In this document: positions 29,749-62,503 of the stretch, in pieces | How positions within the stretch are numbered: the first letter of the stretch is position 1 | Layout of the letters: every line of letters starts with the position of its first letter | Assembly: GCF_000212735.1 (NCBI RefSeq) | Contig: NC_015513.1 | Span: 1 to 64,000, forward strand | Direction of reading: 5' to 3' | DNA from: Haliscomenobacter hydrossis DSM 1100 | Lineage (GTDB): Bacteria; Bacteroidota; Bacteroidia; Chitinophagales; Saprospiraceae | DNA length: 64,000 nucleotides | Notes under the pieces: model-generated | Seen by the model: only the letters and a program-made list of their open reading frames with translations | The model's database searches: none | What the model was told of the DNA's origin: nothing | Made by a program: the position numbers and the translations under genes

Positions 29749-31808
29749 ATGAACCTTCAACAAGCTCAAAAATTCACCCACTTGAGGTGCTTTGTAACCC
29801 TTGGTTTGCTGGCACTTGCTCAGGGAATCCTGGCTCAATTGCCAGCCGCTGAATCCTTGTTGAGCAATGGCTTGAATTCCTTCGAAGTGTACGGATCCAC
29901 TGCCCCCCATGCCCTGGTTGAGGAAGTGGCGGTGACCGGACAGCCCTTCACCAAAGCTTTGCGGGTCAATACCTTTAAGCAGGCAGTAGACAAAGGGAAT
30001 TACGGATTGAGAGCGGACATCAATACGAATTTGCACAAAGGTGACGTGCTTTGGATTTCATTCAAAGCACGTTGCCTCGAGAGCACCCGCGAAACGGGAG
30101 AAGCCTCGTTTGAGTTTCGTTTTGACCAGTTGGTAAATGGAAAATACCAGTGGCCATCTTACCTCGAACGAGGGGTATCTGTTGGAAAAGAATGGACAGA
30201 AACCAGTCTCCCCTTTGTCCTTCCCAAAGATGTAAAACCCGCAGATGTACGTCTGATTTTCAAGTTCGACACCTATGCACAACGCTTCGAACTAGGACCG
30301 GTGACCTTTTTGAACTATGGTCCAGGGGTAAAACTGAGCGATTTGCCGCGCAGCTTTGTCCGGTACGAAGGCAGTGAACCCGATGCCCCCTGGCGTAGTG
30401 CTGCTGCCGAACGCATTGAAAAATACCGCAAAGGTGATTTGAGCATCAAGGTGATTGATGCTAAAGGAAAACCTGTCCCCGGCGCTCAAGTTGCCGTTCG
30501 AATGAAACGCAATGCCTTCAATTGGGGCACCTCCACCAATACTCAACGGCTCCTGGACACCCTGCGACCAGAGTCGAAAATCTACCGCGATACCTTGCTG
30601 AAATATTTCAATCAGGTGGTGCTGGAAAACGAAATGAAGTGGTCTGCGTGGACGGATCCGCATAATCCACACGAGCAAACCCTCAAGGGAATCCAGTGGT
30701 TAAAAGCCCATAACATTCCGGTGCGTGGACACGTAATGGTTTGGCCATCTTTTCAGCATTCTCCGAAAATTGTGGCTGAACTGAAAAACGATACCGCCGC
30801 TTTGCGTGCGCTCGTGTTTCGTCACATCGAGGAACAGCTCAGCAAAATGAAGGGCCAGTTCACGGAATGGGATGTCGTCAATGAACCCTACGCCCACCAC
30901 GATTGGCTGGACCTGTTGGGCAAAGAGGAAATGGTGAAATGGTTCAAAGCTGCCCGCGCCGGAGCACCCGGTGTCAAACTGTTTTTGAACGACTATACCA
31001 TGTTTCATCTGTCGATTACCCACAAATCCCCTAATTAGGTTTGTGGTTGATATTGAGCATTTTACTGCGGCTTCAGAACCCCCGACCCCTAAAGGGGAGC
31101 ACATTTTAGGTAACTAAAAGGCCTTACTTTTTCTAAAAAGGGGGAAATATTACGATTATCGAAAATATACTCCCCTTTAGGGGTTGGGGGTTCTGAAGCT
31201 AAAGCACAATCTCGCATTCAATGTGCGGATTTGTGGGTAATCGACAGATGTTTCATGGCGAAGGCCCCAATGCTGCCAGCGAAGCTTTTTACAACAATGT
31301 AAAATTCCTCCAGGAAAACGGAGCGCCCATTGATGCCATCGGTGAGCAAGGACACATTGGTGGCACGCCTCCGGCGATCCCCAAAGTAATCGAACGCCTG
31401 AATCGCTTTGCCGAATTGGGCTTACCGATTCAAATATCCGAGTTCGACATCAACAGCAACGACGACGACTTGAAAGCGCGTTACTTGTCGGATTTTATGA
31501 CTGCCGTTTTTAGTCATCCAGCTACGGTTGGTTTTTTGCAATGGGGTTTCTGGGAGGCGCAACACTGGTTCCCCGCAGCTGCTTTGTGGAATAGAGATTG
31601 GACCCTGCGCAAGCATGGAAAAGCCTTTACCGATTTGGTAAGCAAAACCTGGTGGACAAATTTTGACGGGAAAACAGCGCCTGACGGGGTCAGTAAATTG
31701 CGCGGTTTTTGCGGGGATTACGAGATCACCATCACCTACAAGGGCAAAACGAGCAAACAGCAGTATACCTTGGACAATCAGGGCGGAGTTCTGGTGGTGA
31801 AATTGTAA
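29749..31808 (+). pseudogene. GH10 endo-xylanase gene split by a 239-bp mobile element
   Basis: Removing the element (31009-31247) and one 9-bp target copy restores a single frame of 603 residues. It comprises a signal peptide ending GILAQ, a CBM4/9-like beta-sandwich at about 30-200, and a GH10 barrel from about 245. The acid/base Glu is in EWDVVNEP (about residue 375) before the insertion and the nucleophile Glu in QISEFDIN (about 481) after it, so neither fragment can be active alone. The 5' frame now runs into the element and stops at 31038; the 3' part can be read from an ATG inside the element at 31221. Known: GH10 enzymes cleave beta-1,4-xylan. The insertion looks recent because no other frame damage is seen. 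Confidence 0.92.
31009..31247. mobile_element. 239-bp non-autonomous element (MITE), copy 1, with 9-bp target duplication
   Basis: The terminal inverted repeats read ctgtcgattacccacaaatc at the left and its complement at the right. The direct repeat atgtttcat flanks it at 31000-31008 and 31248-31256. Inside is a second inverted repeat built on cagaacccc..aggggag. It carries no transposase. An almost identical copy lies inverted at 60720-60959, beside an IS50/Tn5-type element whose intact end (taattgacag with tttgtgggt) matches these termini. The 9-bp duplication is the size known for the IS50/Tn5 group, so that transposase is the likely mover. Confidence 0.93.
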
Positions 31809-60719: not shown

Positions 60720-60959
60720 CTGTCGATTACCCACAAATCCGCACATTGAATGCGAGATTGTGCTTTAGCTTCAGAACCCCCAACCCCTAAAGGGGAGTAT
60801 ATTTTCGATAATCGTAATATTTCCCCCTTTTTTAGAAAAAGTAAGGCCTTTTAGTTACCTAAAATGTGCTCCCCTTTAGGGGTCGGGGGTTCTGAGGCCG
60901 CAGTAAAATGCTCAATATCAACCACAAACCTAATTAGGGGATTTGTGGGTAATCGACAG
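60720..60959. mobile_element. MITE copy 2 (240 bp), at the left end of the IS
   Basis: This is the reverse complement of the element at 31009-31247, identical as far as I compared apart from one extra base in an A/T run (six against five, near 60830). It has the same termini, ctgtcgattacccacaaatc and its complement. No 9-bp direct repeat brackets it: gcctaaggt is on the left and cctcaaaat on the right. It occupies the place where the left terminus of the adjoining IS should be, so it either inserted there or recombined with that terminus. Confidence 0.92.
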
Positions 60960-60993
60960 CCTCAAAATAGATTTGGGGTACTCGGAAAGAAGT

Positions 60994-61761
60994 TCATTGA
61001 GAGAATGTAATGTAAGCATCAACAAGAGTTTTGAGTCTTTCTAGGGCTCTGGTCAAGATGATGATACCAGGTACGGGCTGTCGTTTAGAAGGCAAAAAGC
61101 CACCAATTCGGCCCAAGGTGATGCAAAACTGCTTGACGGTTGGGGGGCTTTTGGGGTCATAGTGGACGTCAAGGTTTAGCCTTTTTTCCGCATAGGTATA
61201 AAGGACCTTGTAGCTGAGGTCATCGATGCCGATTTGATCGATGGTTTGATCTGGATCGGTATCGCAGTAGTATCGGAGTTGTAGAGCATCCATAGCGGCA
61301 ATACTGTAGGTAGTGATGGCATTTTTGAGTCGATGAGGTAAAGCTAATTGAAGTTTTTCAACCGAAGCGCCACCACTCTTTAAAATAAAATGGAAGCGTT
61401 CGATGATCCATCTTAACACGTAGTAGCGACAAATCTGGACGGCATCCTGGAAGGATTGCACATCTAAAGAAGTCAACAATCGCCAATGGATAGTATGTTC
61501 CTGATCTTGCTTGGCTGGGACTTCCCGGATATCTACCACATTCAAGGCAATTGGAGGGAGGTGTTGCTTATGGGGCAAGGGGTTTTTCAATTTTACTACT
61601 ACGGCACCAAATCTTATTTCCAGATTAGCCGTACGCCACCTTTTGCTTGTCGAACAAAATACCTGAGTTTGGTAGGTTCCTTGAGCGGTCCAACTATCAA
61701 CGGTCGGGCCTAAATTGCTCTGACCATCGCACAGTTTGCGATCATGGTTGGAGCGGATCAA
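60994..61761 (-). pseudogene. Transposase, C-terminal part (frame 2)
   Basis: This 255-codon frame continues the transposase from IRSNHDRKL onwards. It contains the catalytic Glu in the Y-(2)-R-(3)-E-(6)-K signature (YYVLRWIIERFHFILKSG near residue 120) and the C-terminal Tn5-dimerisation-like region. It begins only at a TTG that lies in the T-run where the two frames overlap. Relatives read the two parts as one chain (HF-LIRSNHDR), so either one T has been lost from the run (five instead of six) or ribosomes slip back one base at the TTT before the TGA stop. A simple mutation is more likely for this family. Confidence 0.85.
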
Positions 61762-62426
61762 AAATGCATCCCAGGAGCTGATCGCTCAGCAAACAATTCT
61801 AGAATATCAGCTTCTCGATCTGCAACATAAACCACCTCAAGTCCTTGGGTTTGGCTAAAAGTTTGTCCGCAATCAAAGTGATCAAGCCAGCGAGCGCTTT
61901 CCTTATCTTGAATTGGTTCGTGGAGACGCTCTGCGCTTTTGCCCAGTTTCTCGTCCTTACGGATATGAAAAGTTTGCTTCAATAACCCAAGAGGCTGGCC
62001 TTGTTCGCTCACCAAAAGGCTATTATGCAAATGCAGACCCCGATGTTTGATGTATTTCAGAGGGCCAAGATGTTTAGCGCAGCGGTGGCGGGTGTAGTTC
62101 AACTCAACTGTATCACTAATTTGCAAAACCCTAAGTGGACGCTCTTTACTTGGTGGTAAGCTACTGATAATATCCTGAAAATGAAGCGCCAACTGTCCTT
62201 GTGGGGTCACTTTTTCGTTATCCCACAGCCGATATGTCCCTTTGATAGCTTTCCATTCCAGGTTCGCTTGGGGTACCGTCGCATTCATTTGTGCACTCAA
62301 ATGACGTAAAACGCTCCGATAACGACTTTCCAATCGCTTATCTCCCAAGCAAGATGTACTATATTTTTTGCCCCTTTCATTCAGCAAAAAATACATTTTT
62401 GTTTTGCTTACATTACATAACCTCAA
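61758..62426 (-). pseudogene. Transposase, N-terminal part (frame 1)
   Basis: The 222-codon frame has the Tn5-type N-terminal DNA-binding domain (SCLGDKRLESRYRSVLRHLS, TYRLWDNEKVTPQGQLALHF) and the first two catalytic Asp residues, in LQISDTVELNYT and VVYVADREADILELF. It ends at a TGA directly after a run of five T (61760-61764 region) where the second frame takes over. Together the two frames supply a full DDE triad, about 477 residues, matching the length of IS50 transposases. Confidence 0.87.
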
Positions 62427-62503
62427 TGAACTTCTTGGTCGTTTACGCTCAAATCCAGATTTGTCGGTTTTGTGGGTAATTGACAGACCTTAGAACACCT
62501 TAG

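Follow-up and report, generated by a model that had tools for sequence, protein, structure and literature searches.

The window analyzed here is the whole stretch of 64,000 nucleotides from Haliscomenobacter hydrossis DSM 1100 and is taken as bases 1–64000 of plasmid pHALHY03, a name assigned by the order of sizes in PMC3156403. The genome comprises 8,771,651 bases in four contigs, including the chromosome (C1, 8,371,686 bases) and this plasmid (C4, 92,189 bases). The locus of interest contains genes for an ECF sigma factor, FecR, two SusC/SusD pairs (the second named by eye), a PKD protein, a GH10 protein, a GFO/IDH protein, a GH28-like protein, a melibiase-like protein, a beta-helix protein, and ThuA. 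The GH10 gene is split by a short MITE, and a second copy of this element lies next to a broken insertion sequence (IS) further along the window. The features are as follows.

29749–31038, forward strand: GH10 5′ part; native sequence up to 31008, stop codon 31036–31038 within the MITE
30883–30885, forward strand: codon of the acid/base Glu (residue 379, WDVVNEP), assigned by motif position
31000–31008: target-site duplication ATGTTTCAT, left copy, which doubles as GH10 codons
31009–31247, forward strand: MITE, 239 bp, a sequence with 20 full-length copies in the genome
31009–31029, forward strand: left 21-bp terminal inverted repeat (TIR) CTGTCGATTACCCACAAATCC, sharing 19 of 21 positions with the IS end
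31059–31113: first arm of the inverted repeat within the MITE, 82% complementary to 31156–31210
31156–31210: second arm of the inverted repeat within the MITE
31221–31808, forward strand: GH10 3′ ORF, with its ATG from the MITE; native GH10 sequence restarts at 31257
31227–31247, reverse strand: right 21-bp TIR, a perfect inverted repeat of the left TIR
31248–31256: target-site duplication ATGTTTCAT, right copy
31440–31442, forward strand: codon of the nucleophile Glu (residue 482 of the joined frame, ISEFD), assigned by motif position
60720–60959, reverse strand: further MITE copy of 240 bp with the majority sequence
60960–62486, reverse strand: broken partner IS that lacks 19 end bases and has its transposase in two frames

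The initial annotation had described a 239-bp element with perfect TIRs between direct repeats, and exactly this arrangement was found, with 21-bp TIRs bounding 31009–31247 and ATGTTTCAT on both sides; the span of 31000–31256 given there corresponds to the element plus the direct repeats on its two sides. With the element and one repeat taken out, the 603-aa frame predicted there was recovered without interruption, reading NDYTMFHGEGPN over the join and containing no further stop or frameshift. The 5′ and 3′ ORFs match adjoining parts of the Pfam GH10 model (PF00331, positions 9–175 and 176–300, respectively), and the best solved relative is 7d88 (E 4.8e-56). The joined frame thus qualifies as a GH10 protein, with a catalytic domain and both catalytic glutamates in motifs conserved in six homologues. 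In GH10 enzymes, the Glu in WDVVNEP is the acid/base and that in ISEFD the nucleophile, and their codons here (30883–30885 and 31440–31442) flank the insertion, in agreement with the earlier claim that they lie on opposite sides. Comparison with uninterrupted relatives had been set beforehand as a test of the reconstruction. In a homologue pattern scan of the genome contig collection, seven loci were found, of which six (L144–L149, 52–67% identity) match through the join, each as one open frame with LFLNDYTMFHG at that point and with similar identity on both sides (49–67% before and 58–74% after), and the seventh (L150) is a fragment ending short of the join.

The insertion adds 248 bp and shifts the reading frame, and the 3′ ORF from 31221 is without the acid/base Glu. 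Because 248 is not a multiple of three, the 5′ product stops at 31036–31038, and the two catalytic glutamates are separated, the GH10 enzyme should be inactivated. The in-frame ATG at 31221 that the element was said to supply is present, and its use is putative. One may imagine that the split gene is kept in use, either through halves that are made separately from this ATG and assemble, or through the MITE acting as a switch by precise excision, which would restore the frame; both halves are otherwise undamaged, yet this is equally expected from a recent insertion. The 5′ half ends in a foreign tail, no signal peptide was seen by eye in the 3′ half, and all six homologues covering the join are unsplit, and continued use of the gene is thus considered very improbable.

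The claim that the locus has lost its “main backbone enzyme” was overstated, because the genes of the locus do not identify a xylan program; three further GH10 genes with open frames are intact on the chromosome. Close counterparts were searched with the first half of the protein (E 1e-20) in 40 genomes including its own, giving matches in 13, none of which exceeds 35% identity outside the window. In the plasmid collection, from which the window's own record may be excluded, no DNA match to the GH10 region was obtained in near mode, and a protein search gave five records with GH10s of 28–34% identity. A synteny comparison by tblastn of 12 neighboring proteins against the seven homologue loci with flanks of up to 5 kb gave only SusC-like matches, in L144. 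The plasmid GH10 gene was likely acquired horizontally. The split gene would be a clean example of how a very small passenger element can silence a CAZyme gene within a SusC/SusD locus, a loss that gene calling would show merely as two partial genes.

The designation of the element as a MITE was borne out by its short length, TIRs, target-site duplication, and multiple copies. The genome search for the 239-bp sequence that the initial annotation had suggested gave 20 full-length copies, two on C4 (both inside the window) and 18 on C1. Thirteen of these are identical over 240 bp, five more have one or two differences, and the remaining two have 21 and 46. Four sibling MITEs share the same ends with a different interior; many partial MITE-like matches and single ends (e.g., C1:5209510) were left out of this count of 20 and four. 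Since there are 20 full-length copies, 14 of which have perfect 9- or 10-bp direct repeats (six are without a perfect repeat), the element is not a chance arrangement. A length of 239 bp leaves no room for a transposase gene, and the near-constant length of the duplication, the near-identity of the copies, and the ends shared with an IS are likewise those of a MITE. The palindromic interior CCCCTAAAGGGG was also found without IS-type ends nearby at three loci (L025, L027, and L029, around base 1500), for which reason the MITE may have captured another repeat.

Relative to the majority sequence, the GH10 copy has one private substitution and a 1-nt deletion that it has in common with the copy at C1:2287295. 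The earlier description of the insertion as recent therefore stands in a relative sense, with 13 of 20 copies identical, two differences in the GH10 copy, and a gene otherwise free of stops and frameshifts; the private substitution tempers it. Misplacement of a repeat inside an intact GH10 gene was also considered, given the 20 full-length repeats of the element and a genome assembled in 2011 from 454 and Illumina data (PMC3156403). Such an artefact is contradicted by the exact 9-bp duplication at the junctions and by the private substitution. Moreover, 454 reads are long enough for single reads to span a 239-bp element. An assembly error is accordingly regarded as a shade more improbable even than continued use of the split gene. 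The insertion is real, clean, and relatively recent, and it is an ordinary kind of event.

A candidate driver of the MITE resides in the same genome. Matching end pairs occur 1546–1549 bp apart at five chromosomal places, in addition to the broken copy on the plasmid. An intact 462-aa transposase is encoded in four of these six IS copies, which are identical to one another over 1549 bp, and the copies at C1:4279575 and on C4 have the same three 1-nt deletions. The transposase matches the IS4-family model NF033590 with 301.7 bits (cut-off, 160) as well as Pfam Tnp_DNA_bind, and is homologous to the Tn5 transposase over residues 6–458 (E 8.7e-27); at E 1e-60, it was found in one of 40 genomes, its own. 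The TIRs of the MITE and the IS agree at 19 of 21 positions. Because the ends match, the duplication is 9 bp, the MITE is present in multiple copies, and intact identical IS copies exist, the explanation in which we have high confidence is that the non-autonomous MITE entered the plasmid GH10 gene through the action of the transposase encoded by the resident 1549-bp IS4-family, Tn5-like IS. The transposase would act on the MITE in trans, and movement would probably proceed by cut and paste. At 60720–62486 of the window, the second MITE directly adjoins the broken IS with its frameshifted transposase inside an array of CTNAGG units, an arrangement that looks like a MITE-adjacent deletion.

No DNA match to the MITE was found in the plasmid collection in distant mode. 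The element is unnamed in the titles or abstract starts of the listed literature on Haliscomenobacter insertion sequences and transposases, and likewise in those of the listed matches on MITEs with Bacteroidetes or the IS4 family and on REP targets with MITEs. A literature search joining MITEs with polysaccharide utilization and glycoside hydrolases found nothing, and the string “transpos-” is absent from the genome paper (PMC3156403).

The flanks of the other copies contain arrays of CTNAGG units, mostly 9–11 bases apart, which form long hairpins once the element is removed. Of 30 insertions (20 MITEs, four siblings, and six ISs, one of which lacks an end), 26 are in CTNAGG arrays, with the array at C4 60720–62486 judged from its repeats rather than folded. 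One MITE, at C1:6226212, is in another hairpin, which is without CTNAG repeats. Three insertions are in open frames, namely, the GH10 copy (604 codons) and the ISs at C1:4279575 (415 codons) and C1:8243721 (419 codons). Two of the five end-complete IS copies therefore sit in open frames, and among the 24 MITEs only the GH10 copy lies neither in a CTNAGG array nor in the other hairpin. The frame containing the IS at C1:4279575–4281120 (L061 and L170) reads like a YD/RHS repeat protein. The GH10 target is the near-palindrome CCATGTTTCATGG, and its duplicated sequence ATGTTTCAT is without the CTNAG core, which is present in 12 of the 14 perfect MITE repeats. In this genome, a CTNAGG hairpin arm is the usual landing site of the IS and the MITE, and the GH10 copy is a stray. 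Both arms of one hairpin can be occupied, by two MITEs at C1:529508/529801 and by an IS in one arm and a MITE in the other at C1:2285673 and C1:6098398. The left and right flanks of the MITE copies at L018 and L019 (around base 1500) correspond to the two arms of a single hairpin that lacks its loop, which is the pattern to be expected if two MITEs, one in each arm, had recombined.

The hairpins form a family seen in Haliscomenobacter (examples are L081, L082, L087, L116, and L143, around base 1500). A pattern of three arm units matched this genome 33 times and three other Haliscomenobacter genomes 100, 141, and 210 times, with no match in a fourth, and a reversed-pattern control gave none in four of these genomes and one in the fifth. 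Among 80 genomes of the family including its own, five others have one to three matches, which is about the control level (controls reach two). By our own count, the 33 matches correspond to 21 places, of which 13 are occupied by an IS or MITE and eight are empty. A simple hairpin finder gives no count, as it flagged a single place in 400 kb and overlooked the array already known from the window. Rfam at gathering thresholds gave no match in the window or in three hairpin loci. In a test of arm similarity with the 26 of 33 hairpins that have a recognizable center (seven were dropped for want of one), arms of the same hairpin were more alike than arms taken from different hairpins of one type, the observed total being reached in none of 2000 within-type permutations; an arm's own counterpart ranked strictly first in just six of the 26.

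Relatives of the MITE were found in sister species. Full-length matches with 78–80% identity are present in two Haliscomenobacter genomes (G001 and G004) and partial matches only in a third (G002), with none in the fourth (G003); in one genome from outside the genus (G016), short matches are limited to the MITE interior. Among three full-length relatives, one is in a CTNAG array (L105 in G004). The other two, both in G001, are free of CTNAGG units, over 100 bases to the left and to the right in the case of L106, which has the direct repeat GTGTAAGGT; L110 has no perfect direct repeat. These two relatives outside arrays speak against a strict hairpin rule, as do the two end-complete IS copies in open frames of this genome. 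At 22 sister-species hairpin loci among the matches listed of 451 (about 11 distinct hairpins in three species), no TIR occurs within 150 bases of an arm.

Two readings of the target choice may be considered. In the first, the Tn5-like IS and its MITEs would have colonized a genus-specific hairpin family as a safe harbor, the hairpin or clustered-repeat architecture rather than merely CTNAG would set the target, and the GH10 copy would be a rare escape. In its favor, an element is present at 13 of the 21 places in this species and at none of the 22 listed loci from three sister species. In the second, the hairpin preference is only apparent, since a short CTNAG-type sequence alone guides insertion and gene-hitting insertions have been purged. 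The perfect direct repeats with CTNAG (12 of 14 MITEs, all four siblings, and one of four ISs) are consistent with the second reading, as are the reported IS10 preference for NGCTNAGCN (PMC4574204), the placement of just one of three sister-species relatives in an array, and the genic position of most such sites, as 30 of 36 CCTNAGG and six of eight ACCTNAGRC sites in a 400-kb sample lie in open frames of at least 100 codons. Against it, no full copy occurs at any lone CTNAG site in this genome, and the MITE at C1:6226212 occupies a hairpin without CTNAG repeats. Of the six sampled CCTNAGG sites outside such frames, two flank an occupied hairpin and the other four, one of which may be an arm remnant, are without a full copy, although these numbers are small. 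Lone sites outside genes thus exist with no full copy there, which hints at an array preference, although purging of insertions that hit genes may also have shaped this picture. The statement that targets of the Tn5 type are most effective when similar sequences are clustered around them (PMC1525189) fits such a preference. Guidance by the short sequence alone is given a probability approaching even. The safe-harbor reading, which had been rated similarly, was marked down slightly because two of the three full-length sister-species relatives lie outside arrays, and it is put forward tentatively, at somewhat below an even chance. A MITE, the IS4-family element that likely drives it, and a hairpin family seen in one genus are thereby linked into one system in the Bacteroidota, and the empty sites in sister species make the target choice testable.

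Among known systems, Tn5/IS50 and Tn10/IS10 are similar in their homologous transposase (Tn5 Tnp) and 9-bp duplication. The ends presumably resemble the Tn5 outside end as well. In contrast to these transposons, nearly all copies here are in hairpin repeats, and MITEs (24) outnumber ISs (six). The CTNAG-type palindromic target is similar to the IS10 consensus NGCTNAGCN given in PMC4574204. A MITE of Porphyromonas gingivalis (PMC4596501), also in Bacteroidota, contains a minisatellite according to the title of the paper. Insertion of the IS4 family into palindromic repeats is already known from ISRm22 of Sinorhizobium meliloti, of which all 10 tabulated copies are inside REP sequences (Tobes and Pareja 2006, PMC1525189). 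Most copies are likewise in palindromic repeats in the present genome (26 of 30), in contrast to the sister species (one of three full-length MITEs). Imperfect direct repeats occur in some copies of both systems, for which recombination or adjacent deletion was offered in the case of ISRm22 (PMC1525189). Unlike ISRm22 with its 6-bp repeats, the duplications here are 9–10 bp, the CTNAGG hairpins are seen in Haliscomenobacter, and MITEs are more numerous than ISs. What is new is the concentration of the IS and MITE in CTNAGG hairpins, with the GH10 copy as an unusual stray, and this hairpin-biased IS4/MITE pair raises an ordinary event somewhat.
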